From an uncultured Alphaproteobacteria bacterium (GTDB lineage Bacteria; Pseudomonadota; Alphaproteobacteria; Rhodobacterales; Rhodobacteraceae): 34,674 nt of DNA. The stretch lies in assembly GCA_902596605.1 (NCBI GenBank), contig CACJUU010000016.1, positions 1 through 34,674 on the forward strand, given 5' to 3'. The position numbers were made by a program, and so were the translations under genes. Numbering within the stretch: position 1 is the first letter of the stretch; each line of letters opens with the position of its first letter. The notes beneath the pieces were generated by a model, which had not been told where the DNA came from, did not search any database, and saw only the letters and a list, made by a program, of their open reading frames with translations. This document shows, one piece after another, positions 7,268-29,665 of the stretch.

Positions 7268-7284
7268 TAAATAAGGAGAATTTC

Positions 7285-9318: not shown

Positions 9319-9878
9319 TACTTTTTTACACAAGTTGTTAACAGATTATCGTAATTGTCAATTATCCACTCTGGAATATTTTGGGGATACTTCATAAGTA
9401 TTTTTTCTTGTACATCTAAAGTGATTGTATTGGACTTAGACAGCCCAACAAATTTCCATGACTCAGAGTCTTTAAACACCTGATTATAGATAATAAGAAA
9501 AATTATTATTATAATAACCCCTCTTAAAAACCCAAAGAGCAAACCAAGAATTTTATTTACCTCGTTAAGGATTGAGGTTTCGATAAAATATGAAATTCTG
9601 TATGTAATGAATGAGATAGAAATAAGAGCTAGTGTGAAGCCCAAAATAAAAGAAAGTATCATCATTAATTCACAGCTATCGCCTAATATGCTCATCACGA
9701 AATCTATTTCGGAAATAGTAGTAAAAATCAGAGGGGAAATAAGATAAGCTACCACGATCGCCAGAAACCAGTTTAAAATTAACAGAACTTCTTTTATGAA
9801 ACCTCGGTAGTAGGCAAAAACCCCTGAAAAAATTATTAATCCGGCTGAAATCAAATCAAAAGAGGACATGGTCTCCAT
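9318..9878 (-). CDS. cvpA: CvpA family membrane protein
   Basis: A 186-residue inner-membrane protein with four to five hydrophobic segments (about 8-27, 30-52, 65-92, 100-125) and the CvpA landmarks FDLISAGLIIFSG, YYRGFIKEVL and LGLLFGFLRG. CvpA is named for colicin V production and has been linked to envelope homeostasis and to purF expression; its biochemical role is unresolved. ATG 9878 has AAAGGAA about 10 bases upstream. A second in-frame ATG lies three codons on. It is followed by the SDR gene with a TAATG overlap and preceded by mlaF with 50 bases between. Confidence 0.85.
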   Translation of the reverse strand: METMSSFDLISAGLIIFSGVFAYYRGFIKEVLLILNWFLAIVVAYLISPLIFTTISEIDFVMSILGDSCELMMILSFILGFTLALISISFITYRISYFIETSILNEVNKILGLLFGFLRGVIIIIIFLIIYNQVFKDSESWKFVGLSKSNTITLDVQEKILMKYPQNIPEWIIDNYDNLLTTCVKK

Positions 9879-9928
9879 TAGCTCAGATTCCTTTGTAGAG
9901 AAATTTAATTAAAAAACTTTTTAAGAAA

Positions 9929-11442: not shown

Positions 11443-11450
11443 ATAATTTC

Positions 11451-12491: not shown

Positions 12492-12506
12492 TTATTATCC
12501 TAAGGC

Positions 12507-13955: not shown

Positions 13956-13973
13956 AAGTCTTACCGACGATAG

Positions 13974-14002
13974 TATATACGAACTCTTTTTTTTTTCACC
14001 AA
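13974..14002 (-). promoter_or_regulatory. Candidate sigma-70 promoter for dnaB-alr
   Basis: Read on the minus strand, TTGGTG (13997-14002) and TATATA (13974-13979) are separated by 17 bases that include a run of ten A. The transcript would begin near 13967 and give a short leader before dnaB at 13955. Only two boxes support it, in AT-rich DNA. Confidence 0.35.
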
Positions 14003-14074
14003 GTTAATTATACATACAATCTCTATTTCATAGTAATAGCTTTTTGAGTGTAATAGATTTTATTGGTAAGCAGA

Positions 14075-14707
14075 CTATTCTGTTCCGCTTTGCTCGGGTG
14101 ATTTATTTTCAGAGCTAGTCTCCTCTTTTACTTCTTCAGAGGTAGCCTCTTCAGTTTTTAGCGAAACTCCATCTTCAAGGAGACTTTCGTTCAGCTCCGC
14201 ATTAATTTCATTGGAGCTATTATCTTCATCATTTTTCTTTTCTATATCCGATGTAGTATCTCCTAAGCTTCGTGCCACTTTCAATTTTATTTTGCTTTCA
14301 ACTTCGGGATGCAAAATTATACTCATATCGAATAATCCTAACTCCTTTATGGGTTTGTCTAAAGCGATCTGTCTTCTGCTTAGTGTTATTCCATTTTCAC
14401 CAATTAGGTTTGCTATATCTCTCGTAGTGACCGACCCATACAATACTCCAGTATCAGATGCTGACCTAACAATCAACAAATCAAGAGATTCTACTTCTGC
14501 TCTTATTTTCTCTGCTTTTTCAATCTCGGCTTTATTTTTCTCGAGCAACTTTGCTTTTGTAGTTTCAAAAACTTCTTTGTTCTCTTTCGTTGCTCTCAAA
14601 GCTTTACCACTAGGAATAAGATAGTTTCTACCAAATCCTGGCTTTACTTTAACTGTATCGCCTATATTCCCTAGTTTATTAATTTTTTGAAGTAATATGA
14701 TTTCCAT
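14075..14707 (-). CDS. rplI: 50S ribosomal protein bL9 with acidic tail
   Basis: Ribosomal protein bL9, binding 23S rRNA near the L1 stalk. The N-domain is clear (MEIILLQKINKLGNIGD, then KPGFGRNYLIPSGKA at 22-36), followed by the connecting helix and a C-domain ending near residue 150. The last 60 residues (151-210) are a low-complexity tail with 19 Asp/Glu and only 5 Lys; E. coli bL9 ends at about 149. Acidic C-terminal extensions of bL9 are seen in other Alphaproteobacteria. It lies 8 bases after rpsR in the rpsF-rpsR-rplI operon. Confidence 0.96.
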   Translation of the reverse strand: MEIILLQKINKLGNIGDTVKVKPGFGRNYLIPSGKALRATKENKEVFETTKAKLLEKNKAEIEKAEKIRAEVESLDLLIVRSASDTGVLYGSVTTRDIANLIGENGITLSRRQIALDKPIKELGLFDMSIILHPEVESKIKLKVARSLGDTTSDIEKKNDEDNSSNEINAELNESLLEDGVSLKTEEATSEEVKEETSSENKSPEQSGTE

Positions 14708-14715
14708 TACAGGGC

Positions 14716-14976
14716 CTATTTGACTGCATAAGGCAACAAGCCTAAAAACCTGGCTCGTTTAATTGCAATTGCAAGCTCTCTTTGTTTTTTAGTTGAAACC
14801 GCAGTAATTCTTGACGGTATGATTTTCCCTCTTTCTGAAATAAACTTCTGAAGGGTCCTCACATCCTTGTAGTCAATAGGTTGTGCTCCTTTTTCGGAGA
14901 ACGGACAACTTTTTTGACGCCTAAAATAGTGTTTATTATTGTTTACAGACCTTCTATCATTATACCTTTTTTCCAT
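14716..14976 (-). CDS. rpsR: 30S ribosomal protein bS18
   Basis: Ribosomal protein bS18, partner of bS6 on the 30S platform, 86 residues. Diagnostic segments are [52 protein letters not shown] and the final LGLLPY. Two starts are possible: ATG 14976 (used here) or TTG 14982, two codons earlier and directly abutting the rpsF stop. AGAGG lies 6 bases before the TTG but about 12 before the ATG, so TTG initiation is a real alternative. The difference is only two residues. Confidence 0.95.
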
Positions 14977-14982
14977 ATCCAA

Positions 14983-15330
14983 TCAAGTCCTCTCTTCTTC
15001 GTCTTTATTCCTACTGTTCATCATGATTGAATGACCATCTTTATGCTCTTTAACCTTAACGGTTAAAAATCTCATAATATCTTCATGGATGTTCATTAAA
15101 CGCTCCATCTCAGCCACGGCTTTTGCTTCACTATTTGATTTAAACATAAAATAATGACCCTTCCTGTTTTTATTCATTCTGTAAGCTATTGATCTTAATC
15201 CCCAATATTCGCTTTCAATTACATTTCCACCATTCTCAGTAAGGGTACCTTTAAATTCTTCTGCCAGAGCCTCAGCTTGTACAGATGTTAAATCTTGTCT
15301 ACAAATAAAAACGTGTTCGTAATTAGGCAT
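14983..15330 (-). CDS. rpsF: 30S ribosomal protein bS6
   Basis: Ribosomal protein bS6, 115 residues, binding 16S rRNA as a complex with bS18. Typical segments are MPNYEHVFICRQDLT, EYWGLRSIAYRMNKNRKGHYF and a short charged C-terminal tail. ATG 15330 has AGGA six bases upstream. It is the first gene of the minus-strand operon that runs through rpsR and rplI and faces fabD across a 146-base divergent promoter region. Confidence 0.96.
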   Translation of the reverse strand: MPNYEHVFICRQDLTSVQAEALAEEFKGTLTENGGNVIESEYWGLRSIAYRMNKNRKGHYFMFKSNSEAKAVAEMERLMNIHEDIMRFLTVKVKEHKDGHSIMMNSRNKDEEERT

Positions 15331-15361
15331 TCAAAATCCTTAAAAATAGTTGGTCAAGGTT

Positions 15362-15393
15362 GTTATATACAGCAAAAATAAAAAAGCAAGCAA
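15362..15393 (-). promoter_or_regulatory. Candidate promoter for rpsF-rpsR-rplI
   Basis: On the minus strand two overlapping TTGCTT boxes (15388-15393 and 15384-15389) precede an AT-rich -10 region: TATATA at 15364-15369 (18-base spacer from the first) or TATAAC at 15362-15367 (16-base spacer from the second). The leader to rpsF would be about 25 bases. The call is by inspection only. Confidence 0.38.
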
Positions 15394-15402
15394 ACAGTTG
15401 CA

Positions 15403-15429
15403 TTGTTTAAATGATTATTTTGGTATACA
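15403..15429 (+). promoter_or_regulatory. Candidate promoter for fabD operon
   Basis: The -10 box TATACA (15424-15429) is preceded by TGG, an extended -10 pattern. Weak -35 candidates are TTGTTT at 15403-15408 (15-base spacer) and TTGCAT at 15398-15403 (20-base spacer). It would start a transcript about 40 bases before fabD ATG 15477, in the region shared with rpsF. Confidence 0.35.
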
Positions 15430-15476
15430 CATTATTACAATGCAATTCTTCTAAGAACGAATGCGAGGAAAAGAAT

Positions 15477-16424
15477 ATGAAAAAAGCTTTTTTGTTTCCA
15501 GGCCAAGGATCACAATTTACAGGTATGGGTCAAGAATTAGCAAGCCAGTTTAAGGTGGCCAATGATGTATTTTTGGAAGTTGATGAAGCTCTTGGAGAAA
15601 AATTGTCTGCACTGATGTTTAGAGGCGATATTAAAGAATTAACATTAACAAAAAACGCTCAACCCGCAATTATGGCAGTTTCCATTGCTATTTTGAGGGT
15701 CATGTCATCTAATGGTTTGGATCTTAAAACAATTGATCTTTTAGCTGGGCACTCATTAGGAGAATATAGTGCCCTTTGCGCCTCAGGGGTAGTTTCTCTA
15801 AGGGATACTGCAATAGTATTAAGGAAAAGGGGTATAGCCATGCAAAATGCAGTCTCTGAAGGTGAAGGTTCAATGGTCGCTGTTTTAGGCTTGACTAACG
15901 AAATTGTAAACGAATTTTTAATTACAAGCAAATGTGATAACCATTTGATCCAAGTTGCAAACGATAACGACCCTTCACAAGTGGTTATCTCCGGCGAAAA
16001 GAAAGAAGTAAAGAAGTTCTCTGACTTTTTAAAAAAGAAAAATGCTAAGAGAATTATTAACCTTCCAGTTTCTGCCCCTTTTCACTCTCCTCTTATGAAA
16101 CCGGCTGCGTTAATAATGGAATCTGAGTTGAGAAAGGTCAATTTTTCAAACCCAATAGTTCCAATAATTCAGAATGTTGATTTAAGTATATTAGGTTCAA
16201 CTGAAGGATTGGTGGAGAGTTTAGTCAAACAGATTTGTGGAACAGTAAGATGGAGAGAGAGTTTAATAAAGATGGCAGACGAATATGGCATAAAAAACTT
16301 TTTTGAAATAGGTCCCGGTAAAGTATTGGCTAGCACGGTGAAAAGAACAATTCCTGATGCAACCGTCCTTTCGGTAGGCCTTGCTCCTCAGATCGGACAA
16401 GCATTGGAGATGTTAAATGACTAA
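15477..16424 (+). CDS. fabD: Malonyl-CoA:ACP transacylase FabD
   Basis: Transfers malonyl from CoA to acyl carrier protein, the entry step of type II fatty acid synthesis. The 315-residue product has FPGQGSQ (7-13), the nucleophile Ser93 in GHSLG (91-95) and the catalytic His203 in SAPFHSPLM. ATG 15477 is preceded by GAGGAAA at 15465-15471; an in-frame ATG at 15411 would add 22 non-homologous residues and lies in the promoter region. The last 8 bases overlap fabG, consistent with coupled translation. Confidence 0.96.
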   Translation: MKKAFLFPGQGSQFTGMGQELASQFKVANDVFLEVDEALGEKLSALMFRGDIKELTLTKNAQPAIMAVSIAILRVMSSNGLDLKTIDLLAGHSLGEYSALCASGVVSLRDTAIVLRKRGIAMQNAVSEGEGSMVAVLGLTNEIVNEFLITSKCDNHLIQVANDNDPSQVVISGEKKEVKKFSDFLKKKNAKRIINLPVSAPFHSPLMKPAALIMESELRKVNFSNPIVPIIQNVDLSILGSTEGLVESLVKQICGTVRWRESLIKMADEYGIKNFFEIGPGKVLASTVKRTIPDATVLSVGLAPQIGQALEMLND

Positions 16425-17160
16425 TTTGGAAAACTTAAATATCCTAATTACTGGTGCATCTGGTGGGATAGGAACAAGCCTATCTAAGGCATTTGCTTCA
16501 ACGAAAGCAAATCTCTTTCTTGTCGGATCTTCTGAAGAGAAATTATCCAAGTTACGGAGTGAACTGCCAGCTAGAGAGAATATTAACTATTTTCCCGTTG
16601 ATTTAAGTGAAAGAGAAAATGTAAGTCACTTTTGTGACTCGATAATTGAGAAATATGGAGGAATTAGCATTATTGTTAATAATGCGGGTATTACTGAAGA
16701 TAATCTATTTATGAGAATGACTGACAATGCTTGGGATAAGGTTTTTGCAATTAATCTCGATGCATCGATGATAATTTGCAGAAAGTTCATTCGAGGGATG
16801 ATAAAAAATAAATGGGGGAGAATTGTAAATATTTCGTCTGTAGTTGCATCAACAGGTAATCCAGGGCAAAGCAATTATGTAGCCGCCAAAGGTGCATTGA
16901 ATGGATTAACAAAATCATTGGCAATAGAAGTCGCAACAAGAGGCATTACAGTCAACTGCATATCACCAGGTTTTATTGATACAGCTATGACAGCTAAATT
17001 GACAGATGATCAAAAAGTGAAAATAACTGAAAGGATTCCGATAGGCAGAATGGGGTCTGGCGATGATGTATCAGCTTTGGTGTTATTTCTTGTGACTAAT
17101 GAAGCAGGTTATATTACAGGGCAAAACATACATGTTAATGGAGGCCTTTTCCTAACATAG
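16417..17160 (+). CDS. fabG: 3-oxoacyl-ACP reductase FabG
   Basis: NADPH-dependent ketoreductase of fatty acid elongation, 247 residues, cytoplasmic tetramer. It carries TGASGGIG (12-19), NNAG (88-91), Ser141 in NISSVVA, and Tyr154 and Lys158 in YVAAK. The C-terminus has the ITVNCISPGFIDTAMT and GYITGQNIHVNGG segments typical of FabG and not of other SDRs. It overlaps fabD by 8 bases and is followed by a 147-base gap that carries a candidate acpP promoter. Confidence 0.96.
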   Translation: MTNLENLNILITGASGGIGTSLSKAFASTKANLFLVGSSEEKLSKLRSELPARENINYFPVDLSERENVSHFCDSIIEKYGGISIIVNNAGITEDNLFMRMTDNAWDKVFAINLDASMIICRKFIRGMIKNKWGRIVNISSVVASTGNPGQSNYVAAKGALNGLTKSLAIEVATRGITVNCISPGFIDTAMTAKLTDDQKVKITERIPIGRMGSGDDVSALVLFLVTNEAGYITGQNIHVNGGLFLT

Positions 17161-17202
17161 AGAGTTTTTCTTCATCTTACTCTAAAATTTTCCAGATAAG
17201 TA

Positions 17203-17229
17203 TTGCTTGTTTTCGTAATTATGTATAAA
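17203..17229 (+). promoter_or_regulatory. Candidate promoter for acpP
   Basis: TTGCTT (17203-17208) and TATAAA (17224-17229) with a 15-base spacer lie in the 147-base gap between fabG and acpP. acpP is usually expressed far above its neighbours, so a dedicated promoter is expected; the short spacer makes this call tentative. Confidence 0.35.
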
Positions 17230-17241
17230 AGAAAAATCTAT

Positions 17242-17260
17242 CGAAAATTGACCATTTTCG
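17242..17260 (+). promoter_or_regulatory. Inverted repeat in acpP leader
   Basis: CGAAAAT (17242-17248), loop TGACC, and ATTTTCG (17254-17260) form a perfect 7-bp stem. It lies downstream of the candidate promoter and 47 bases before the acpP ATG, so it would be in the 5' leader of the mRNA. It could be an RNA hairpin or an operator half-site pair; no T-run follows, so it is not a standard terminator. Confidence 0.4.
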
Positions 17261-17307
17261 TAACAGAAAACAGGCCAAATAATGGGTATGATGATGAGGA
17301 GGTTAAT

Positions 17308-17541
17308 ATGAGTGATGTTGTAGATAGAGTTAAAAAAATAGTTGTAGAGCATTTGAGTGTAGAAGAAGGCTCGATATCAAACAGTTCATCTTTTATAGAT
17401 GATTTGGGCGCGGATAGCCTTGACACAGTGGAGCTGGTGATGGCTTTTGAAGAAGAATTTGGTATAGAAATTCCAGATGATGCAGCCGAAACTATCCAGA
17501 CTGTGGGTGATGCTGTCAAGTTCATCGAAGAAAACTCTTAA
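17308..17541 (+). CDS. acpP: Acyl carrier protein
   Basis: Small acidic carrier (77 residues) that holds growing acyl chains on a phosphopantetheine arm. The attachment residue is Ser37 in [13 protein letters not shown]. Length, acidity and the [12 protein letters not shown] segment are standard. ATG 17308 is supported by a very strong GAGGAGG at 17296-17302, five bases upstream; in-frame codons further upstream would give a non-family extension. fabF follows after 39 bases. Confidence 0.97.
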
Positions 17542-17580
17542 GGTGCCTGAAATTCGGAGCGCTACATTATATAGAAAAGC

Positions 17581-18840
17581 ATGAGACGTGTTGCAGTAAC
17601 TGGAATGGGGTTGTTGACCCCACTTGGGTGCGGCGTCGAGATAGTCTGGAATAGACTGTTAAAAGGGTTATCATCAGCAACGAAGATCACTAAATTCGAC
17701 CCGTCGGATTATTCAACAACTTATGCTTGTGAAATTCCTTTTGGTGATGACTCAGAAGAAAAATTTAATCCCGACGAGTGGATGAATTCAAAAGATAGAA
17801 GGAAAGTTGATGACTTTATTCTTTATGGTATTTGTGCGGCGGATCAAGCTGTAAAAGATGCAGGTTGGACTCCTGAAAAAGAGCAAGACTTACTTCGAAC
17901 TGGTGTAATGATAGGCTCTGGTATAGGTGGTCTTCAATCTATAGGCGACACTGCTAATTTAATCAAAGATAAGGGACCGAGGAGAGTTTCTCCTTTCTTT
18001 ATACCGGGGGCATTGATCAATTTGATCTCTGGTCAGGTCTCAATAAGATATGGCTTCAAAGGGCCAAACCATTCTGTGGTAACAGCCTGTTCAACCGGTG
18101 CGCATGCTATCGGAGATGCTGCTAGGTTTATTATATCTGGGGAAGCTGATGTAATGATCGCTGGTGGAGCTGAAAGCCCTATAACAGAACTTGGGATAGC
18201 TGGGTTCAATGCATGTAAGGCTTTATCTACAAAATTTGGAGAAGATCCAAGTATTGCAAGTAGGCCATATGATGTTGATAGAGATGGCTTTGTTATGGGA
18301 GAAGGTGCAGGGATAGTGGTTCTTGAGGAGCTTGAGCATGCAAAAAAAAGAGGTGCTAAAATATACTGTGAGGTTTTGGGTTATGGGCTGACCGGAGACG
18401 CATACCATATTACTGCGCCTCCGCCAGATGGAGACGGTGGCAAAAGATCGATGAGCGCAGCACTCAAAAGCAGTAAATCAAACATTTCTGATATTGACTA
18501 CATTAATGCACACGGTACGTCTACAATGGCTGATACCATAGAATTAGGTGCCGTTGAGTCTCTAGCTATGAATTATGCAAACAAAATATCCATGTCCTCT
18601 ACAAAATCATCAATTGGTCACTTATTAGGAGCTGCTGGCTCGGTCGAGGCTATTTTTTCAATATTATCAATTCGAGATCAAATTGTTCCACCAACTATAA
18701 ATCTTGAAAAACCAGCTGTTGATACTAAAATCGATTTAGTTCCAAAGGTTGCGCGGGAAAGAAAAGTTGATAGAGCTCTATCAAACTCCTTCGGGTTCGG
18801 CGGCACAAATGCATCTTTAGTGGTAGGAAAACTAAATTAG
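17581..18840 (+). CDS. fabF: 3-oxoacyl-ACP synthase II FabF
   Basis: Condensing enzyme that elongates acyl-ACP with malonyl-ACP, 419 residues. The catalytic triad is visible as Cys170 (TACSTG), His311 (NAHGTST) and His347 (SIGHLLGAAGS), with the conserved Lys342 before it. The N-terminus RRVAVTGMGLLTPLG and C-terminus SNSFGFGGTNASLV are typical. The ribosome site before ATG 17581 is weak, although the gene follows acpP closely. mltG follows by about 20 bases, a common alphaproteobacterial arrangement. Confidence 0.97.
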   Translation: MRRVAVTGMGLLTPLGCGVEIVWNRLLKGLSSATKITKFDPSDYSTTYACEIPFGDDSEEKFNPDEWMNSKDRRKVDDFILYGICAADQAVKDAGWTPEKEQDLLRTGVMIGSGIGGLQSIGDTANLIKDKGPRRVSPFFIPGALINLISGQVSIRYGFKGPNHSVVTACSTGAHAIGDAARFIISGEADVMIAGGAESPITELGIAGFNACKALSTKFGEDPSIASRPYDVDRDGFVMGEGAGIVVLEELEHAKKRGAKIYCEVLGYGLTGDAYHITAPPPDGDGGKRSMSAALKSSKSNISDIDYINAHGTSTMADTIELGAVESLAMNYANKISMSSTKSSIGHLLGAAGSVEAIFSILSIRDQIVPPTINLEKPAVDTKIDLVPKVARERKVDRALSNSFGFGGTNASLVVGKLN

Positions 18841-18861
18841 AAATTACTGTAAAATTGAGTG

Positions 18862-19839
18862 ATGGCTACTTTTTTTTCTAACGTTTTTTGCCTATTTTTA
18901 GCTTGTTTAATTTCTTTTTATATTGCTGTCACTAGTTTCAAACTTTACTATGAAAAGCCCGGACCAAGTGAGCAAGAACAATTATTGATCATAAAAAAGG
19001 GCCAAAGTGTTGCAAATATTGCCAGTCACCTAAAAGAATTAAATCTAATTGAAAACCGTATGGTCTTTATTCTGGTTGTGAGGCTCAAGGGCTTTCATGA
19101 CAAAATAAAGTTTGGAGAATATATGATTACAAAAACTGCCTCTATTAAAGATATTTTAGATTCAGTGATTACTGGAGTATCGTTCCAGAATAAAATCACT
19201 ATTCCCGAGGGTCTCAGCACGATTTCAGTAATACATCGGATAAATAATGATTCTAGGATTAAAGGCGATTTGATTAGTTTCAGCGAGGAGGGTGTGCTTG
19301 CTCCCAATACATACAGCTTTGATATTACCACAGAGAAAAAAGATCTCTTCTTAAAGATGAGAAAAAATCAAGAGAGGATTTTAGAAGCTGCGTGGGATAA
19401 AAGGGATCCTGATTTGCCGCTGAATAATGCTTCGGAGCTTTTAATTTTGGCATCTATAGTCGAGAAGGAATCTGGTAATGAGGAGGACAAAAAAAAAGTT
19501 GCTTCTGTGTTTTTAAATCGTTTGAAAAAAAAAATGAGATTGCAATCTGATCCAACTGTTGTCTATAGTTTAACAAAAGGTAAAGAGCCGTTAAATAGAG
19601 AGCTTAGTAGAAGTGATCTTAAAACAAAGTCCCCCTTTAATACATATAAAATTGATGGACTGCCACCTAGCCCAATTTGCAATCCAAGCAAGGCATCAAT
19701 TCACGCGGTTTCAAATCCACTTAAAACAGACTTCTTGTTTTTTGTAGCTAATGGAGAGGGAGGGCATAATTTTTCAGACAATCTCAAGCAGCACAACAGG
19801 TTTGTTAAAGAGTATAGAAAATTGAAGATAGAAAATTGA
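18862..19839 (+). CDS. mltG: Endolytic transglycosylase MltG
   Basis: Inner-membrane lytic transglycosylase (YceG family) thought to terminate nascent glycan strands. The 325-residue protein has one N-terminal membrane helix (about 4-25), a LysM-like subdomain (about 38-100) and the YceG catalytic core: ILASIVEKES, where Glu201 aligns with the catalytic Glu of E. coli MltG, then QSDPTVVYSL, SPFNTYKIDGLPPSPI and FVANGEGGHNFS. The start is ATG 18862; a GTG directly before it at 18859 would add one residue. It lies 21 bases after fabF and 37 before cysE. Confidence 0.95.
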   Translation: MATFFSNVFCLFLACLISFYIAVTSFKLYYEKPGPSEQEQLLIIKKGQSVANIASHLKELNLIENRMVFILVVRLKGFHDKIKFGEYMITKTASIKDILDSVITGVSFQNKITIPEGLSTISVIHRINNDSRIKGDLISFSEEGVLAPNTYSFDITTEKKDLFLKMRKNQERILEAAWDKRDPDLPLNNASELLILASIVEKESGNEEDKKKVASVFLNRLKKKMRLQSDPTVVYSLTKGKEPLNRELSRSDLKTKSPFNTYKIDGLPPSPICNPSKASIHAVSNPLKTDFLFFVANGEGGHNFSDNLKQHNRFVKEYRKLKIEN

Positions 19840-19845
19840 TTTTTT

Positions 19846-19859
19846 AACATAATTATGTT
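19846..19859. promoter_or_regulatory. 14-bp perfect palindrome between mltG and cysE
   Basis: AACATAATTATGTT is a perfect 14-bp palindrome in the 37-base gap before cysE. It could be a binding site for a dimeric regulator of cysE or a chance product of AT-rich DNA. No other copy was noticed by eye in the window. Confidence 0.3.
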
Positions 19860-19876
19860 GTTAATAAGAATTATTT

Positions 19877-20689
19877 ATGGAGTCGTTGTTATTGGAACAA
19901 AGTGATATAAAAATAAAGAAGATTTGGGAAACAATCTGCAAGGAAGCTCAGGTATCCTTAAAGAAATCTAATTACATGAAAAAATATTTTAATAACAACG
20001 TTTTGGATCAAAGTAGTTTCGGCGATGCATTATCGCATATCATCGCTGTAAAGGTTTCTAGCCCTGATTTTGAATTAGGACAGCTCATTCCAATACTGCA
20101 ACAGCAGATTAGTAATTTCCCTTATATATGTGATTACGCAGTGGATGACTTGATTGCCTTTTATGAAAGAGATCCTGCTTGCCACTGGTTTTATCAACCT
20201 TTTCTTTTTTACAAAGGATTTATTGCTTTACAAGTACACCGAATAGCAAATGCACTTTACAATAATGGAGACATAGATTTTTCTCTTTATTTACAAATGA
20301 AAGTATCAGAGGTTTTCAGTATAGATATTCATCCTGGAGCAACAATAGGTAAAGGCATCATGTTTGATCATGCTCATAATCTCGTTATCGGAGAAACGGC
20401 CAAAGTTGGGGATAATGTCTCTATTTTGCATTCTGTCACTCTAGGTGGTACTGGAAAAGTTCGGGGTGACAGACACCCTAAGATAGGAAATAATGTTTTA
20501 ATTGGAGCAGGTGCAAAAATATTAGGCAATATTTCGATTGGAGAGTGTTCTAGAGTCGCTGCTGGTTCGTTAGTCTTGAAATCAGTGGATCCTTTTAAGA
20601 CCGTAGCAGGGGTGCCCGCTAAAGTGGTAGGAAGTTCAGGGTGTCCCGAACCATCAAAAATGATGGACCAAATTTTAAACAAAAATTAG
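19877..20689 (+). CDS. cysE: Serine O-acetyltransferase
   Basis: Makes O-acetylserine from serine and acetyl-CoA, the first step of cysteine synthesis. The 270-residue product has the all-helical N-terminal SAT domain (residues about 10-115, with AFYERDPACHWFYQPFLFYKG) and the left-handed beta-helix of hexapeptide repeats. Active-site residues match the family: Asp150 and His152 in DIHPGA, Asp164 and His165 in MFDHAHN. The glycine-rich loop LGGTGKVRGDRHPKIG is complete. The C-terminal tail ends near LNKN without the Ile that in E. coli mediates cysteine synthase docking. It ends one base from the convergent pdhC stop. Confidence 0.95.
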   Translation: MESLLLEQSDIKIKKIWETICKEAQVSLKKSNYMKKYFNNNVLDQSSFGDALSHIIAVKVSSPDFELGQLIPILQQQISNFPYICDYAVDDLIAFYERDPACHWFYQPFLFYKGFIALQVHRIANALYNNGDIDFSLYLQMKVSEVFSIDIHPGATIGKGIMFDHAHNLVIGETAKVGDNVSILHSVTLGGTGKVRGDRHPKIGNNVLIGAGAKILGNISIGECSRVAAGSLVLKSVDPFKTVAGVPAKVVGSSGCPEPSKMMDQILNKN

Positions 20690-20690
20690 T

Positions 20691-21566
20691 TTATTTTATC
20701 ATTAAAACATTAGGATTTTGTAGGTAGAATACTATTCTATCAAGGAGCTTCGCTGCAAGCTCTCCATCAATCGTTCTATGATCAACGGATAATGTTAAGT
20801 AAACTTGTTTGCATGATAAAAAGCTTCCGTTTTCACTAATAACCTCGTCTTTAACTGCCCCAACTGCTAATATTGATGAATTTGGTGGGTTAATAATCGC
20901 ATCGAAGTTTTCGATAGAAAACATCCCTAAGTTCGAAATGGCATGCGCACAGTCTATAAAGTCACTGTTTCGCAGTTGTTTTTTCTTTGCTTTTTCAATA
21001 AGCTCCTTCATTTCTGAGGAAATTTGACTTAATGATTTTTTATCAATGTTTCTAAGAGTTGGGGTATACAGTCCTGCTTCAGTTGATATAGCTACTCCAA
21101 TTGCTACTTCGTTAAATTTTAACATATGTTGCTCTTGCCAGATCATATTACAGTCAGGAAAGTCTATTAAAGCACAAGCACACGCTTTTATAAAAAAGTC
21201 ATTTATTGATATTTTATTGTTTTTTTCAAGTAAATCATTTGTCTTATTTCTAAAGTTTATCAATTCATCTACTCTAGCTTTACGTCTTAAGTAAAAGTGA
21301 GGTATTGACGACTTTGAAAGGGTTAGCTTTTCCGCAATTATTCGTCTTATTTTAGGTACATTTATTACCTCATGGTCTATACCATTAACTTGTCCGGCAT
21401 TATTCTTTTGTTCGATTTCTTTTTTAGACGAGGGTAACTTTAAATGTTTTTCGATATCAATTTTTGTGATTCTTCCCCTTGGTCCAGTACCTATGATATC
21501 TTCGATATTTATAGAATTCAAAGAGGCTAACTTTTTGGCTAAAGGTGTTATAAATATTCTACCCAT
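20691..21566 (-). CDS. pdhC: Pyruvate dehydrogenase E2 acetyltransferase lacking lipoyl domain
   Basis: Dihydrolipoamide acetyltransferase core subunit, but only 291 residues. It begins with the peripheral subunit-binding domain (residues 3-41: ITPLAKKLA, then GTGPRGRITKIDIEKHL), a short linker (42-66) and the catalytic domain (67-291) with the active-site DHRTIDG (262-268, His263 and Asp267) and SNLGMFSIENFDAIINPP. Alphaproteobacterial PdhC normally has an N-terminal lipoyl domain of about 80 residues before this; here only 7 bases separate its ATG from the pdhB stop, so the domain is not lost by a wrong start. Acetyl transfer must therefore depend on the lipoyl domain of PdhB or of another protein. 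Confidence 0.93.
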   Translation of the reverse strand: MGRIFITPLAKKLASLNSINIEDIIGTGPRGRITKIDIEKHLKLPSSKKEIEQKNNAGQVNGIDHEVINVPKIRRIIAEKLTLSKSSIPHFYLRRKARVDELINFRNKTNDLLEKNNKISINDFFIKACACALIDFPDCNMIWQEQHMLKFNEVAIGVAISTEAGLYTPTLRNIDKKSLSQISSEMKELIEKAKKKQLRNSDFIDCAHAISNLGMFSIENFDAIINPPNSSILAVGAVKDEVISENGSFLSCKQVYLTLSVDHRTIDGELAAKLLDRIVFYLQNPNVLMIK

Positions 21567-21573
21567 AATTTAT

Positions 21574-22965
21574 TTAATCTTTATAGAGAACTTGTTTGAC
21601 AGAAAAAACAATCTCGTCTGGAGTAATTAAAGCCGCTTTTTCCAAATTCTCTGCATAGGGCATAGGAACGTCTTTCCCTGTGCAATTCAAAACCGGGGCA
21701 TCCAAGTAGTCAAATGCTCTTATCATGATTTGCGAGCCAATATAGCTTCCAACTGAACAAACAGGAAAAGATTCTTCCACGGTTACACATCTATTAGTCT
21801 TTTTCACTGACTGTATTATTGTATCGAAGTCAATTGGCCTTATTGTTCTTAGATCGATTATCTCTGCACTTATTCCTAATTCCTTCAGCTTCATATCAGC
21901 CTCAAGCGTGTGCACCATGCCGATTCCATAGCTAATGATTGTCACGTCCTGTCCGGTTGAAATAGTTTTCGCCTTTCCAATTGGTATAATTTGTTCAGAG
22001 GCAATATTTACTGGAAACGACTTCCCATACAAAATCTCATTTTCAAGAAAAATAACCGGATTATTTTCTCTAATCGCTGACTTTAGTAAACCTTTTGCAT
22101 CTTCTGCAGAAAATGGCTGAATCACTTTCAAACCTGGAATTGAAGCGTATAATGATGCGAAATCTTGGCTATGTTGAGCTGCTACTCTAGCGGCTGCTCC
22201 ATTTGGCCCCCTAAAGACAATTGGACAATTAATTTGTCCACCTGACATATAATTTGTTTTAGCTGCTGAGTTAATTATCTGATCTAAAGCCTGCATAGCG
22301 AAATTGAATGTCATGAACTCGACTATTGGTCTTATTCCGGTAAAAGCAGCTCCAACAGCTAGTCCAGTGAACCCATGCTCAGTGATAGGAGTATCAATTA
22401 CTCGTTCCGACCCAAACTCTTCAAGCAAGCCCTGACTAACTTTGTATGCTCCTTGATACTCTCCTACCTCTTCACCCATCAGAAAAACGTCATTATCAAG
22501 TCTCATCTCCTCGGCGATAGCGCTGTTTATTGCTTCCCTAACAGTTAATTCATTCACCACCTGATTTTCTATTGTCTCATTATTAAGCATTTTGTTGTCT
22601 TCAAAATTCTTGTCTACATTATCCAAATTACCTTCTTCGCTCAAAACTTGTTCATTATTATCAATACTTACAGGTTCAATTTTCTTGATATCATCAACCT
22701 TTCTTATGTTAATTTCCTCAGCGCCTTCAGTTTCAATTATGGCAATCAAGGAATTAACTTTTATATTCTCCGTTCCCTCCTTTACAATTAGTTCAACAAT
22801 AGTGCCTTCCTCAATACTTTCATATTCCATTAGAGCTTTATCCGTTTCGATATCAGCTATGATATCACCTGGTTTAACCTTATCTCCAGGGCTGACGTAC
22901 CATTTTGCAAGGCTACCTTCTTCCATAGTGGGTGAAAGAGAGGGCATTAAAATTTCGGTCTTCAT
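21574..22965 (-). CDS. pdhB: Pyruvate dehydrogenase E1 beta with N-terminal lipoyl domain
   Basis: Beta chain of the thiamine-diphosphate pyruvate decarboxylase, 463 residues. Residues 1-78 are a lipoyl domain with the lipoylated Lys43 in ETDKALMEY. Residues about 79-137 are an acidic, Asn-rich flexible linker. From about 138 the E1-beta fold follows ([55 protein letters not shown], and a C-terminal transketolase domain with [11 protein letters not shown]). The fused lipoyl domain on E1-beta is a known alphaproteobacterial feature. ATG 22965 has AGGA 7 bases upstream. It lies 15 bases after pdhA and 7 before pdhC. Confidence 0.96.
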
Positions 22966-22980
22966 TTTTTTTCCTAATAT

Positions 22981-23955
22981 TTAACCAGCATACACATCAG
23001 TCCAAAGCTCCTCAATATCAGGTTCTGGGCTGTTTAAAGCGAAGTCTGACGCTTCAGTTACTATTGCTTTAATCTCAGCATCCGTTGCTTTAAACTGCTT
23101 CTCTGAGATTTTATGTTTTTCTATCAATATAGACCGTAGCATATCTATTGGGTCTTTCTCTTCTCTGACCTTTTGCACCTCTTCTCTAGTTCGATATTTT
23201 GCTGGGTCAGACATAGAGTGCCCCCTGTATCTGTATGTTTTCATTTCAAGTATAAACGGGCCTTCACCGGCCCTACAATGATCAGCCGCGTGAGCAGCTT
23301 CTTTTGCTACATCAAGAACATTCATACCATTAACGGCTTTCCCTGGAATATTGAAAGCCAGTCCTCTTGCAAACATCTCTTCGGTTGAGGACGCTCGAAC
23401 CATTGAGGTCCCCATGGCATACTGGTTATTTTCAATAACAAAAACTACTGGTAATTTCCAAAGTGAAGCCATATTGAAAGCTTCGTAAACTTGTCCTTGA
23501 TTTGCAGCCCCCTCACCAAAGTATGTGAAACATACGCGACTATTTTTTTTATATTTATTTGCAAAAGCGATGCCGGCCCCAATTGGTACTTGTGCGCCTA
23601 CAATTCCGTGCCCTCCATAAAAGCCTTCACTTTTAGAGAACATATGCATAGACCCCCCTTTACCCTTTGAGTATCCAGTAAAACGACCCGTCAGTTCTGC
23701 CATGACCATTTTTGGATCCATACCACAAGCAAGCATATGACCATGATCTCTATAAGATGTAATGTTTTGATCTCCCTTCTCCTTAATAGCATCTATTCCC
23801 ACAACAACAGCTTCCTGGCCAATATACAAATGACAAAATCCTCCTATGTGTCCCATGCCATAAAGCTGCCCCGCTTTTTCTTCAAATCTTCTAATTAGGA
23901 GCATCTTGTGATAAAGTTCAAGCAACTCTTTTTTTGACATCACTGTTTTGTTCAT
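22981..23955 (-). CDS. pdhA: Pyruvate dehydrogenase E1 alpha
   Basis: Alpha chain of pyruvate dehydrogenase E1, 324 residues. The thiamine-diphosphate motif runs from GEG (147-149) to NN (176-177). Other landmarks are RRFEEKAGQLYGMG, HLYIGQEA, YRDHGHMLA, and the active-site loop YRYRGHSMSDPAKYR. The gene starts at ATG 23955 and heads pdhA-pdhB-pdhC. The 30-base gap to ftsB contains a small AT-rich inverted repeat. Confidence 0.97.
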   Translation of the reverse strand: MNKTVMSKKELLELYHKMLLIRRFEEKAGQLYGMGHIGGFCHLYIGQEAVVVGIDAIKEKGDQNITSYRDHGHMLACGMDPKMVMAELTGRFTGYSKGKGGSMHMFSKSEGFYGGHGIVGAQVPIGAGIAFANKYKKNSRVCFTYFGEGAANQGQVYEAFNMASLWKLPVVFVIENNQYAMGTSMVRASSTEEMFARGLAFNIPGKAVNGMNVLDVAKEAAHAADHCRAGEGPFILEMKTYRYRGHSMSDPAKYRTREEVQKVREEKDPIDMLRSILIEKHKISEKQFKATDAEIKAIVTEASDFALNSPEPDIEELWTDVYAG

Positions 23956-23960
23956 GAATA

Positions 23961-23978
23961 TAGTTTAGTATTAAACTA
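23961..23978. promoter_or_regulatory. Short inverted repeat between ftsB and pdhA
   Basis: TAGTTTA (23961-23967), loop GTAT, TAAACTA (23972-23978) is a perfect 7-bp stem that fills most of the 30-base spacer just before pdhA. It is entirely AT-rich apart from one G/C pair and could be an operator or weak hairpin controlling the pdh genes. Confidence 0.3.
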
Positions 23979-23985
23979 AATATTT

Positions 23986-24342
23986 TCAATATCTAATTTT
24001 AAATACTATTAGTTCATCTTCACCAATTAGTCCTAAAATTTTTCTTGCCTGCTGGTCAAGAAGCTCTAAGTCAAGACTTGTATCCGAAAGCCGCTTAATT
24101 TGGTTTTTAACTACCTTAGTTCTTTCATTTACTAACCTCAATTCTTTGGTCAAAGCTTTTTCTTTTGCTAAAAGATTGTACTTGGAAGAAACACCAAACT
24201 CTCCTTTGAATGATGCAATAATAAAATAAAAGCAAAGTATAAAGCATACAGCGGACAAAGTAATATCTAAAATTTTAAAGCTTTTGAACAATTTAGAATC
24301 CTCAAACGAATCATTGCATACTTGATTCGTAAAAGGAATCAT
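23986..24342 (-). CDS. ftsB: Septum formation initiator FtsB/DivIC-like
   Basis: A 118-residue bitopic division protein: short cytoplasmic N-terminus, one membrane helix (about residues 25-45, LDITLSAVCFILCFYFIIAS) and a periplasmic coiled coil (about 57-92, rich in Leu, Glu and Lys), then LDQQARKILGLIGEDELIVF, the family's end motif. FtsB bridges FtsQ and FtsL in the divisome. The location between pgk and pdhA follows the common alphaproteobacterial order near eno/pdh. It starts 4 bases after the pgk stop. Confidence 0.86.
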   Translation of the reverse strand: MIPFTNQVCNDSFEDSKLFKSFKILDITLSAVCFILCFYFIIASFKGEFGVSSKYNLLAKEKALTKELRLVNERTKVVKNQIKRLSDTSLDLELLDQQARKILGLIGEDELIVFKIRY

Positions 24343-24346
24343 TTTT

Positions 24347-25534
24347 TTATACTTTCAGTGATTCGATCCCAGGAAGTGATTTGCCTTCTAACCATTCCAG
24401 AAAAGCGCCTCCAGCAGTTGAAACATAACTAAATTTTGAAATTGAAGCGGATGTTTTAAGAGCACTGACAGTATCACCACCCCCTGCTATTGAGATTAAT
24501 TGCTTTTTTGAAGTTCTATTTGCTGCGTAGTTTGCTATATTATTAGTTCCTTGATCAAATGGTCGAGTTTCAAATGCACCCAGCGGGCCATTCCAAATCA
24601 AGGTCTTTGATTTATCAATTATATCCATTATGTTTTTTTGAGACTGTTTTCCTATATCAAGTATCATTTTATCTATTGGGCAACAATCAACTCTAAAGGT
24701 TTGGGCTTCCTTCTTTTCAATAATTGAGTCGGCACAGACTATATCTAGAGGTAGTACTAACTTACATTTTTTATATTTCAGTTCTTGGATTATTTTTTTT
24801 GCAGTCTGTATCATTTTCTTTTCTGTAAGTGATACTCCAATTCCATATCCCTGAGCACTTAGAAATGTATTGGCCATTGCCCCACCAATTATCAAATATT
24901 CTACTTTATTGCTTAAATTATTTAGAAGCTCAATTTTTGTCGAAATCTTAGAACCTCCAACAATAGCTGTAACTGGTTTTAAAGGTTTGTCTAATGCTAA
25001 AGACAAAGCTTTAAGTTCACTTTGAACAAGGAAACCTGCAAAACTTGGAAGATAATTAGTTATACCCTGAGTAGAGGCATGAGCTCTATGTGAAACTGAA
25101 AAGGCATCATTACAATAAACATTGCCAAGTGACGCAAGTTTCGAGCTAAAATCAGGATCATTAAGCTCCTCTAATTTGGAAAATCGTACATTCTCCAATA
25201 AGAAAATTGAGGGGAAAGGGGCGGCTTCAATTTCTTTGCTCCATAAGTCTATTTCAAGTGATGGCAAAAATTTTATATCTAAATTGAGGGTTTCATTTAG
25301 GTATCCCAACAATTTTCTTAAGCTTAGATCTTTATTTATTATTCCATTTGGTCTTCCAAAGTGCGAAAGTATAACTACCCGGTTTTCGTTTTTTATTAGA
25401 TGATGTATTGTTTCTTTTGTTTTCTCTATTCTTGATGTATCGCTACTCTTTCCATTTGAATAAGGAACGTTTAGGTCAAGACGGAGGACTACTGTCTGTT
25501 TTCTTATATTGGCATCTTGAATTTTTTTTATCAT
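24347..25534 (-). CDS. pgk: Phosphoglycerate kinase
   Basis: Glycolytic and gluconeogenic kinase exchanging phosphate between 1,3-bisphosphoglycerate and ADP. The 395-residue product has RLDLNVP, SHFGRPNG, AHASTQGI, VGGSKISTKIELL, NGPLGAFE, the nucleotide loop SIAGGGDTVSAL and the end motif STAGGAFLEWLEGK. I chose ATG 25534; a TTG at 25543 is the alternative. Neither has a clear ribosome site. It lies 19 bases after tkt; gap (glyceraldehyde-3-phosphate dehydrogenase), often between these two, is absent. Confidence 0.96.
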   Translation of the reverse strand: MIKKIQDANIRKQTVVLRLDLNVPYSNGKSSDTSRIEKTKETIHHLIKNENRVVILSHFGRPNGIINKDLSLRKLLGYLNETLNLDIKFLPSLEIDLWSKEIEAAPFPSIFLLENVRFSKLEELNDPDFSSKLASLGNVYCNDAFSVSHRAHASTQGITNYLPSFAGFLVQSELKALSLALDKPLKPVTAIVGGSKISTKIELLNNLSNKVEYLIIGGAMANTFLSAQGYGIGVSLTEKKMIQTAKKIIQELKYKKCKLVLPLDIVCADSIIEKKEAQTFRVDCCPIDKMILDIGKQSQKNIMDIIDKSKTLIWNGPLGAFETRPFDQGTNNIANYAANRTSKKQLISIAGGGDTVSALKTSASISKFSYVSTAGGAFLEWLEGKSLPGIESLKV

Positions 25535-25553
25535 CAGGATCAAAAAAATGCAA

Positions 25554-27374
25554 TCAAATCAATGTCTTAACTTGCCGACATATTTCGTCAACATTGATTT
25601 GAAAGTGATCAAAGAGATCCTTTGCTGGTGCAGAAGCGCCAAAGCCCTTCATTCCTATAAATGAGGTTTTGGTTTGGTTGCCACCATTTTCATAAAGCCA
25701 TTTTTCCCAACCTAACTTAACTCCGGCTTCTATAGCTATTCTGACGGTGCCTCTCGGCAATAATTTCTTCTTGTATGTATAATTTTGTTCTTCAAATAAT
25801 TCCCAAGAAGGAACCGAAATTACCCTAGTACCAATCCCATTATCTTCTAATACCTCTCCTGCTTTTAATGCAATCTGAACTTCAGAGCCAGTAGCTATGA
25901 GTATAACTTTTTTCTTATTGATAAAATCTTTTACAATGTAGGCGCCCTTAAACGATCGATTAATTGAAACTTTTTCCTTTCTAATTAAAGGCAAATTCTG
26001 TCTCGATAAGCAAATAATAGAGGGTTTGTGTTTTGACTTGAGTGCAATCTCCCAGCATTCAATAGTCTCTATAATATCACATGGTCTAAAAACGTTTAAA
26101 TTTGGGATCGATCGAAGAGATGCCAAATGCTCAACTGGTTGATGTGTTGGTCCGTCTTCACCCAACCCAATACTGTCATGAGTCATAACATAAATAACAC
26201 CCAAACCCATTAGTGCACTTAAACGAATTGCGCCTCGACAATAGTCAGAGAAGGTCAGAAATGTACCTCCATAGGGAATTATTCCCCCATGTAAAGACAT
26301 TCCATTCATGATAGCTGCCATTCCGTGCTCTCTTATACCATAATGAATATATCTGCCTGATCGATTAAGTTCTGAAAAAACTTCAAGCGTTTTTGTTTTG
26401 GTGTTGTTTGAACCTGTCAAGTCTGCAGAACCCCCAATGGTATTATTAAAACACTCATTTATTAGATCTAGGCATAATTCACTTGCTTTTCTTGTTGCTA
26501 GATCCACTTGAATTTCTTGTGAATATAATTTTTTAAAATTTTTAATACCTCGAGTAAGTTTTGAAGGAAATATTTGATCTAGCTCGTTTATAAAGGTCTT
26601 TTTTTTCTTTTCCGATAGACATTGGAAGCGGTCTGACCAATCTTTAAAAACTTTGTGATTTTTTTGCCCAATGTTTACCCATGCTTCCTTTATATTCGAA
26701 GGGATTACAAATTCTTTATATTGCCAACCAAGATTTTTTCTTAATTGTTCAACTTCATTCTTCCCTAATGGAGCTCCATGTACTCCTGAAGTTCCCTGTT
26801 TAGCTGTCGAACCGTAACCAATTATTGACTTGGCCGCAATTAGGGATGGGAGGCTGTCTTTTCTTGCATTATTTATCGCTTGATCAATTTCAATTGGGTT
26901 ATGAGCATCACAAGAAAAAGTAGACCATCCAGACGATTTAAATCTGGAGATCTGGTCAGTATTACAAGAAAGATCTACTTCTCCATCAATTGTAATTCCA
27001 TTATCGTCCCAAATTACTATAAGCTTATTGAGTTTAAGTTTGCCTGCTAATGATATAACTTCTTGGCTTATACCTTCCATTAGACAACCATCCCCAGCAA
27101 TCACATACGTGTAATGGTCACAGAGATGGCTACCCCATTTTGTTCTGATGAATTCTTCTGCGATTGCCATGCCAACGGCATTACCAAGCCCTTGTCCCAA
27201 TGGACCCGTAGTCGTTTCAATACCAGAAATGTGGCCATATTCTGGGTGACCAGCTGTTTTTGAATTAAGCTGCCTGAAGTTTTTTATATCTTCCAAAGTA
27301 ATATCAGGATAACCGGCTAAATAAAGAACAGAATATAAAAGCATTGATCCGTGACCCGCAGATAAAATAAAACG
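25554..27374 (-). CDS. tkt: Transketolase, 5'-truncated at a junction with secF
   Basis: Thiamine-diphosphate transketolase of the pentose phosphate pathway, missing its N-terminus. Homology begins with the codons for RFILSAGHGSMLLYS at 27374, with a stop codon just upstream in the same frame; about 58 residues expected by comparison with E. coli, including the HPG motif that contacts the cofactor, are absent. The internal ATG at 27344 is not the natural start. The remainder is intact: GDG (84-86 counting from that ATG) to Asn115, GIREHGMAAIMNG, DSIGLGEDGPTHQPVEH and ATGSEVQIALKAG. As it stands the product should not be active. The upstream sequence is SecF in another frame. Confidence 0.93.
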   Translation of the reverse strand, partial: RFILSAGHGSMLLYSVLYLAGYPDITLEDIKNFRQLNSKTAGHPEYGHISGIETTTGPLGQGLGNAVGMAIAEEFIRTKWGSHLCDHYTYVIAGDGCLMEGISQEVISLAGKLKLNKLIVIWDDNGITIDGEVDLSCNTDQISRFKSSGWSTFSCDAHNPIEIDQAINNARKDSLPSLIAAKSIIGYGSTAKQGTSGVHGAPLGKNEVEQLRKNLGWQYKEFVIPSNIKEAWVNIGQKNHKVFKDWSDRFQCLSEKKKKTFINELDQIFPSKLTRGIKNFKKLYSQEIQVDLATRKASELCLDLINECFNNTIGGSADLTGSNNTKTKTLEVFSELNRSGRYIHYGIREHGMAAIMNGMSLHGGIIPYGGTFLTFSDYCRGAIRLSALMGLGVIYVMTHDSIGLGEDGPTHQPVEHLASLRSIPNLNVFRPCDIIETIECWEIALKSKHKPSIICLSRQNLPLIRKEKVSINRSFKGAYIVKDFINKKKVILIATGSEVQIALKAGEVLEDNGIGTRVISVPSWELFEEQNYTYKKKLLPRGTVRIAIEAGVKLGWEKWLYENGGNQTKTSFIGMKGFGASAPAKDLFDHFQINVDEICRQVKTLI

Positions 27375-28027
27375 GTATCATTTAACGAGTAACCTATAAT
27401 TGTAAGTAAGGCTGCTATTATTGAAAGGTTAAATTCGTACCTTAGGATTGAAAATACGCCAATGGTCAAAATAACGTCATGAATGAGTGCAAATACCGCT
27501 CCGAGAGCAAATTGCCACTCAAACCGTAACCAAATATATACCAAAACTGATATAACAGCAAAAAGAACAGCTAGCATACCATTTCTTACAAGCTCTGATG
27601 AAACCTTAGATCCAACGGATTCAATTTGTAAGAATTTCATATCAGGCACTTTATTTAGCAGTAAAGCTTTTACCTTTGTTTCAATATTTTGGCCTTCAGT
27701 TTTTTCAACTTTGATGATAAAAATATTGTCAGTACTAGTTAATGTTCCAGCACTCAAAGTCTCTAATGGGTTAGTTGCTTGAGATATAGAAAGATCTCCT
27801 AAATTTGAGCCGCTCAACGTATTTCGAACATCTGACACCTTTATCTTTTCTGAACTTGATACCATAAACATGGTACCACCACGAAAATCTATGCCATAAT
27901 TTAGTCCCAAAATGAAGAATAGCATAATCGATACTAAGATAGCCCCCAGTGAAATATAAGACAGCAAATTAGAAAAGCTGAAAAATTCTATTTCTTTTGA
28001 CTGATTAAATAAGCCTCTAAGTAACAT
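27317..28027 (-). CDS. secF: SecF, N-terminal part, fused to tkt sequence
   Basis: N-terminal 219 residues of SecF: first membrane helix (about 21-43), periplasmic P4 domain with the NYGIDFRGGTMF motif, then helices ending in LLTIIGYSLNDTV, where the conserved family sequence stops. The frame runs on for 17 unrelated residues, decoded from tkt DNA in another frame, to a stop at 27317. SecF should be about 320 residues; its last two helices lie at 1-206 on the other strand. ATG 28027 directly follows the secD stop. Confidence 0.93.
   Translation of the reverse strand: MLLRGLFNQSKEIEFFSFSNLLSYISLGAILVSIMLFFILGLNYGIDFRGGTMFMVSSSEKIKVSDVRNTLSGSNLGDLSISQATNPLETLSAGTLTSTDNIFIIKVEKTEGQNIETKVKALLLNKVPDMKFLQIESVGSKVSSELVRNGMLAVLFAVISVLVYIWLRFEWQFALGAVFALIHDVILTIGVFSILRYEFNLSIIAALLTIIGYSLNDTVLFYLRVTDQCFYILFFI
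27369..27382. other. Breakpoint joining secF to tkt
   Basis: SecF homology ends at the Val codon 27373-27371 (NDTV) and transketolase homology begins at the Arg codon 27374-27372 (RFILSAG), so the two reading frames share a few bases at the crossover. The short shared T-rich sequence (CGTTTTATTT on the minus strand) suggests microhomology. No insertion-sequence ends, target duplications or site-specific recombination sites are visible. Confidence 0.85.
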
Positions 28028-29665
28028 TTATACCCTCAAAACTTTCGGCTTATAAAACAACATATATAGGTCGATAAACAGTCTCGTTATTAGTAAAGCT
28101 GTAAATACAGACGTAATTATCCCTAATCCTAAAGTAACCGAAAAACCTTTTATTGGTCCCGAGCCAAAGAAAAAGAGAATGATAGCTGCTATCAAGGTAG
28201 TTACATTCGCATCAACAATTGAGGACAAAGCTCTTTCATATCCAATTTTTATTGAGTTATAAATAGTGCTATTCTTTTTAATTTCCTCTTTTATACGTTC
28301 GAAAACAAGAACGTTAGCGTCCACTGCCATACCAATTGTTAAAACAATCCCTGCTATACCCGGCAAGGTCAGGGTAGCACCAAGAATTGATAGCAGTGCC
28401 ATCACTAAGATAATATTCAACATCAGAGCAACATTTGCGAAAATGCCAAAAAGACCATAACTTAACCACATAAAAAATAGAACGAAAAGTCCACCAACCA
28501 AAGCTGCTAATTTTCCAGCATTAATGCTGTCGCGTCCCAACTCAGGCCCAATAGTTCTTAATTCCAATACTTCGATCTCTGCTGGCAGCGCCCCACTTCT
28601 CAGCAGAATAGCAAGCCTATTACTCTCCTCTACTGAGAAATTGCCAGTTATAATGCCTGAACCTCCCGGTATATGACTGCGAATCGTGGGAGCTGAAATA
28701 ACTACGTTGTCCAATACTATTGCAAATGGTGAGCCTATGTTGTCTTTTGTATAATTTCCAAATTTTAGTGCAGCTGAGGGATTAAAATTAAATGAGACTG
28801 CTGGCAGGCCATTTTCATCAAAAGATGGTTGTGCATTAGTCAAATTTTCTCCAGAAACAACCGGCCGTTTTTTAAGCAGATAAAACAAATCATTATTTTG
28901 CTCAGAGCCAACTACAATTTCATCCAATTTTGCAGGAAAGTTTGAACTACTGTCTATCGACACAACCTCATTGAAAGTAAGCTTTGCCGTCTTTCCTAGA
29001 AGAGCTATTAACTCTTCACTTGAACCCAAACCAGGAACTTGTACCAAGACCCTTTTCCTACCTTGTCTTTGGATAGTCGGTTCTCTTGTACCAGTTTCAT
29101 CAACCCTTCTTCTTATAATCTCCAGTGATTGCTCGATTACTTGCTTTTCAAGAGTTCTCTTTTGCTCGTCAGAAAATGTAATTGTTATTATATTTTCCAT
29201 TGAATTGATTTTTAGTATATCTTTTTGCACTGACCCTGACCACCTAGACGAAAATAATTCTGTTGAAGAATTAAATTTGTCTATCTCCTTGATTGCAAAA
29301 TCAATATTTTCTGAGTTACCGATTTCAATCTTTAACTGGTCTCCTGAGGTATCTATTCTTCTTATTGATCCAAGCTCTTTTCTGTTTTTAGCTAAGGAGC
29401 TCCTTACATCCGTCCAAAGAAAATCAAATTTCTCTCTTATCACATCATCTGTTTTTACCTCAAGCAGCATGTATACACCGCCCCTGAGATCTAATCCTAG
29501 CTTTACAAGGGTAGAGGGCAGAAAATCAGGCCATGCGGATGTCTGTGTGGGCTTATTTAGCTTTTTATCAACTGTACTATAAAAAAAATTAGGTAGCGCA
29601 AATAAGAGTGAAGAAAAACAAATAATTGCTATTAAAAATATCCTAAAAAAACTAAGTTGTGGCAT
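28028..29665 (-). CDS. secD: Protein translocase subunit SecD
   Basis: Large subunit of SecDF, 545 residues. One N-terminal membrane helix (about 8-27), the periplasmic P1 domain starting near GLDLRGGVYMLLEV, a second subdomain with RRRVDETGTREPTIQRQG and VQVPGL, then LLRSGALPAEI and five C-terminal helices with GIAGIVLTIGMAVDANVLVFERIKEE. It uses proton flow to help pull exported proteins out on the periplasmic side. It is directly adjacent to yajC and to secF, with no spacer on either side. Confidence 0.97.
   Translation of the reverse strand: MPQLSFFRIFLIAIICFSSLLFALPNFFYSTVDKKLNKPTQTSAWPDFLPSTLVKLGLDLRGGVYMLLEVKTDDVIREKFDFLWTDVRSSLAKNRKELGSIRRIDTSGDQLKIEIGNSENIDFAIKEIDKFNSSTELFSSRWSGSVQKDILKINSMENIITITFSDEQKRTLEKQVIEQSLEIIRRRVDETGTREPTIQRQGRKRVLVQVPGLGSSEELIALLGKTAKLTFNEVVSIDSSSNFPAKLDEIVVGSEQNNDLFYLLKKRPVVSGENLTNAQPSFDENGLPAVSFNFNPSAALKFGNYTKDNIGSPFAIVLDNVVISAPTIRSHIPGGSGIITGNFSVEESNRLAILLRSGALPAEIEVLELRTIGPELGRDSINAGKLAALVGGLFVLFFMWLSYGLFGIFANVALMLNIILVMALLSILGATLTLPGIAGIVLTIGMAVDANVLVFERIKEEIKKNSTIYNSIKIGYERALSSIVDANVTTLIAAIILFFFGSGPIKGFSVTLGLGIITSVFTALLITRLFIDLYMLFYKPKVLRV

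Follow-up and report, generated by a model that had tools for sequence, protein, structure and literature searches.

Layout of the contig and the two interrupted genes

The window analysed here is the entire contig C16 (34,674 bases) of a draft genome that comprises 1,974,238 bases in 48 contigs, with a completeness of 84% and a reported contamination of 0. On its minus strand, yajC and secD are followed by codons 1–219 of secF, which run toward position 27371, where the SecF reading ends and a transketolase gene (tkt) takes over. The relevant features are given below, with the basis of each assignment in brackets.

1..206, plus strand: SecF C-terminal part, last 67 codons and stop codon, at the opposite end of the contig and on the opposite strand (Pfam)
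1..27373, no strand: segment inverted with respect to the comparable same-genus genomes, sodB ... pdh, pgk, tkt (gene order in relatives)
25554..27374, minus strand: transketolase (tkt) without its first 67 codons (Pfam and full-length matches in relatives)
27371..27374, no strand: bases that fit SecF as well as tkt, minus-strand sequence CGTT (base-level comparison)
27371..28027, minus strand: SecF N-terminal part, codons 1–219 (Pfam and alignment to 16 intact relatives)
28028..29665, minus strand: secD, intact, in its usual place ahead of secF (Pfam)

On the minus strand SecF can be read up to ...GYSLNDTV with 27371 as the final base, and the transketolase (RFILSAGHGS...) extends from 27374 down to 25554 in a frame that differs from that of SecF. 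The two sequences part at 27371–27374, and the coordinates of the original prediction, which let SecF end with NDTV at 27371 and tkt begin with RFILSAG at 27374 in different frames, are correct. Pfam detects Sec_GG and positions 2–101 of the 189 positions of SecD_SecF_C at 27374–28027 (minus strand), as well as Transketolase_N from position 57 onward together with the pyrimidine and C-terminal domains at 25557–27374 (minus strand). At the left end of the contig, bases 3–206 of the plus strand match SecD_SecF_C positions 137–186, in agreement with the earlier proposal that the missing SecF C-terminus is located at 1–206. A superoxide dismutase gene (sodB) follows this part.

The two parts of secF contribute 657 and 206 nt and, with 100 missing bases, add up to 963 nt, corresponding to 320 amino acids and a stop codon. 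tkt lacks 201 bases, provided that translation begins at the ATG 67 codons upstream, which all 14 relatives with a full-length tkt have; the loss predicted for this gene was 170–200 bases. Automatic gene calling would give a 236-residue SecF (27317–28027, minus strand), the final 17 residues of which are out of frame, and a 596-residue transketolase (25554–27344, minus strand) starting from an internal ATG, both of them products of the join. tRNA genes, considered as sites of rearrangement, are absent from the window.

Gene order and integrity in related genomes

The search with the SecF part covered this genome and 100 relatives, including 21 genomes of the same genus. secF was found in 16 of these 21; the five genomes without a match have completeness values of 58–71%. 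In each of the 16 genomes secF is whole (320 amino acids, 963 nt), and the left end of the window, from base 1 on, starts 100 bases past the secF part. The gap in secF, predicted as about 100 bases, is exactly 100 bases in comparison with every one of these relatives.

The order at secF was aligned in two sets of nine and seven relatives. Since secF is intact and followed by the sodB end in all 16, the segment 1–27373 is flipped in this contig alone; as judged from these alignments, no relative compared has the inversion. The site within tkt is reached, likewise unflipped, in eight of the 16 contigs (G001, G002, G003, G004, G005, G007, G008 and G016), while the remaining eight stop short of it or, in G009, no longer align. 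In all eight relatives measured, 27,474–27,567 bases separate the secF and tkt sites, and the matching distance for the window is 27,374 + 100 = 27,474 bases. The comparison of gene order with relatives, suggested as a check along with the original prediction, has thus given the unflipped order in 16 of 16 cases at secF and in 8 of 8 contigs at tkt. It bears out the claim that a single flip of roughly 1–27373 restores the order secD-secF-sodB.

The join itself was searched for with a 102-base query spanning it. It occurs as one piece in none of the 21 same-genus genomes; the 24 matching places, distributed over 16 of the 21, represent halves only, the longest of which covers positions 1–65 of the 102. 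Relatives with the same join, named beforehand as an outcome that would contradict an artefact, were accordingly looked for and not found within this set.

A full-length tkt match is present in 14 of the 21 relatives, in open frames of 674–693 amino acids; in the other seven the match is absent, or weak and partial. Weak transketolase-like matches (25–36% identity) occur in five relatives. Among them, neighbouring open frames in G003:C1, G005:C65 and G007:C2 resemble the two halves of a transketolase at 25–36% identity and probably represent a split transketolase-like pair. This pair was not seen in the genome of the window.

Copy number, neighbouring contigs and control stretches

The assembly holds one secF and one tkt, both cut; the search for these genes also returned secD and two matches in a frame of 1121 amino acids on contig C32. 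A second secF or tkt was not found in this assembly, although it could lie in the missing part of the genome, since the assembly is 84% complete. The missing 100 bases of secF, searched for with the relatives' sequence, are not located elsewhere in the assembly; nor does it contain the start of tkt or the adjoining 2.4 kb, for which the relatives again supplied the sequence.

No decay was observed in the broken secF and tkt, which remain under the usual constraint as far as the join. For the 40 secF codons nearest the join, comparison with 10 of the 16 relatives gave 4–17 silent and 0–1 other changes each, and for the first 40 codons of the tkt part the values are 3–7 silent and 0–2 other changes each (7 of the 14 relatives). 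Six relatives were examined for inverted repeats at the breaks, and none were detected. Exact inverted matches within 300 bases of the breaks have a maximum length of 9–11 bases, which does not exceed that of random pairs; these longest matches are 200–276 bases off.

With relative G003 as reference, contig C28 lies no more than about 4.3 kb from the right end of the window, and the end of contig C2 is about 6.9 kb past the tkt break. Both are likely chromosomal neighbours of the contig, as their placement on this relative suggests. They were considered as arbiters of the order; neither touches the second break and, consequently, no decision on the order can be derived from them.

Stretches of C1 and C3 (20 kb each), the final 14.5 kb of C2 and most of C28 served as controls and contain no comparable flip; chimeras are thus not ubiquitous in this assembly. 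Three relatives are collinear with C3:1-20000 and, within the reach of their contigs, also with C1:1-20000 apart from the first 155–185 bases or so. These bases are not collinear in G003 and G008 and adjoin a tRNA-Leu gene (186–271, minus strand); part of this gene also has matches elsewhere in three relatives. The start of C1 is probably a variable region at a tRNA gene rather than a chimera. A piece of C28 of about 0.36 kb is inverted with respect to G003 (about 11762–12128 within G003:C5:46000-65999). It was considered as a rearrangement of this assembly and ruled out by its collinearity with G008, so that the change probably lies in G003.

Microhomology at the join

At the base level, the secF strand ends with ...CCGTT and the tkt strand offers CGTT, so that four bases are shared. 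For this comparison, secF of 16 and tkt of 14 relatives were used. Ten of 14 relatives have CGTT at their tkt site, and 8 of 16 have CCGTT at the corresponding position in secF. The base after the shared stretch is G in all 16 secF sequences and in none of the 14 tkt sequences. There would be a fifth shared base if the lost tkt base was C, as in 3 of the 14 relatives. The chance of at least four shared bases at a random join in this window is 0.023.

These properties can be compared with those of chimeras from multiple displacement amplification (MDA). During MDA, displaced 3' ends prime on displaced strands nearby, and inverted joins at short complementary stretches are the principal chimera known from phi29 polymerase. 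According to Lasken and Stockwell 2007 (PMC1855051), 406 of 475 MDA chimeras were inverted and most joins contain 2–21 complementary nucleotides. The present join resembles these chimeras in that it is inverted, connects two sites of one chromosome, lies on four shared bases without inserted ones and is absent from the relatives compared. It differs in the distance of about 27.5 kb between its sites: 337 of the 406 inverted chimeras join sites less than 10 kb apart and 69 exceed 10 kb, which makes the present case one of a minority class, and beyond 10 kb complementary bases were found in only 34.8% of these inverted joins (PMC1855051). A further difference is that the join is seen here in a contig and there in single reads.

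The exact gap of 100 bases

Three reports (PMC5519541, PMC9007364 and PMC9771814) describe a workflow in which each end of SPAdes contigs is trimmed by 100 bp and contigs longer than 2,000 bp are kept, with one wording across all three. If this trim was applied here, the untrimmed contig would have ended at the base right after the shared CGTT, i.e. at a fork. At exactly this base the true path (the rest of secF) and the false path (tkt) would part, and stopping at its own fork would be the behaviour of an assembler once one branch has already been used. The workflow with the 100-bp trim is presumably that of one centre, SCGC. At a fork, the SPAdes contigs of both branches normally retain the shared k-mer. 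Contrary to this usual output, no such k-mer remains here, which counts against an artefact. We also considered that the contig end and the join may mark one physical break of the template, the layout of which would be identical to that of a fork in the graph.

In a benchmark of the SCGC workflow, 1.5 misassemblies per 100 kb were reported (PMC11247762), so the expectation for a contig as long as this one is about 0.5. With the misassembled contigs of single-amplified genomes, the window shares an internal false link, a contig end at the true link, and an end that lacks exactly as many bases (100) as the published trim removes. It differs in that the putative misassembly is read here from the contig sequence and the workflow would have to be deduced.

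Origin of the genome

Identity to the SecF part is 81–96% in the six named relatives closest to it. Five of them are AG- isolates with NODE contigs (AG-916-E11, AG-422-M03, AG-892-M03, AG-904-M20 and AG-430-P14), and the sixth is a MAG, EAC2087; the record titles of AG-916-E11 and AG-892-M03 also start with 'MAG'. AG- names, including that of plate AG-892, denote single-amplified genomes of GORG-tropics in PMC12416821. On the basis of these named relatives and of the 100-base signature, we infer that the genome derives from a phi29-amplified single cell and passed through the 100-base trim.

Discussion

Two readings place the inversion in living cells. A real and recent inversion of 27.5 kb in the lineage of the cell, with breaks inside secF and tkt that were joined on four bases, would account for the layout by one flip. 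Microhomology of at least four bases is expected of a microhomology-mediated event of either kind, and both the true secF link and the tkt start are absent from the assembly. Such an event would, however, disrupt two housekeeping genes of which no second copy was found, and it must be very recent, in a cell losing SecF and the only transketolase found. None of the 21 same-genus genomes has the join. A natural inversion between inverted repeats would likewise consist of one inverted segment between two breaks, but repeats are missing at the breaks in the six relatives examined. This reading also gives no reason for a contig end exactly 100 bases from the second break; as the contigs average 41 kb, an end within 100 bases would be a coincidence of about 0.2%. 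We therefore regard an inversion of this kind as very improbable. The same low standing applies to its cellular consequence, a single marine alphaproteobacterial cell with a fresh inversion cutting both genes, which would be lethal or nearly so.

In the second reading, the assembly would be a metagenome bin from a mixed population in which a real inversion is polymorphic, with a graph that forks at both breaks. This would explain both why there is a join and why the contig ends at the other break. The MAG among the six nearest named relatives and the two AG- records titled 'MAG' are in line with it, whereas the other five nearest named relatives carry AG- names of the type used for GORG-tropics single-cell genomes (PMC12416821). 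Moreover, the reported contamination of 0, the exact number of missing bases, which suits a trimming step, and again the lack of the join in the 21 same-genus genomes and of inverted repeats in the six relatives speak against a mixed population. Of the two inversions, this one is even harder to sustain and barely credible.

We propose instead that the join is an MDA or assembly chimera that was made in the laboratory and not in the cell, to which we assign a probability of about 0.94. An artefact is favoured because secF is whole and in the other order in every close relative in which it was found, and because the length of the missing piece exactly equals that of the trim described in the single-cell workflow papers. 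The original prediction had already preferred an artefact, a preference strengthened by the 0 of 21 genomes with the join, by the published trim and by the failure to find a second secF or tkt in the assembly. The distance of about 27.5 kb, the two AG- records titled 'MAG', the completeness of 84%, the split transketolase-like pair of three relatives and the unaffected control stretches are points against a chimera.

Directly observed in this explanation are the geometry of the join, the gap of exactly 100 bases, the four bases common to both genes and the state of the relatives. The chimera most probably arose when phi29 polymerase copied a strand through secD-secF, ending in ...CCGTT-3', and this strand came loose. 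It would then have annealed by CGTT to a displaced tkt strand about 27.5 kb away and been extended backwards along it. Besides the amplified single cell and the passage through the trim, it is the behaviour of the assembler that we infer: it would have taken the false link from secF to tkt, continued backwards through the segment and halted at the true continuation of secF, as the same contig already contained what follows there, the first part of secF. The 100-base end trim would finally have taken off the first 100 bases of the true continuation.

Our verdict is that the join is not a biological feature. The living cell very probably possesses an intact secD-secF-sodB arrangement and an intact tkt. 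Caution is called for, since truncated secF and tkt genes and a false rearrangement would enter a catalogue derived from this assembly. An offset of exactly 100 bases that separates the end of a contig from an inverted join inside it may serve as a signature of chimeras in single-cell assemblies trimmed in the same way.
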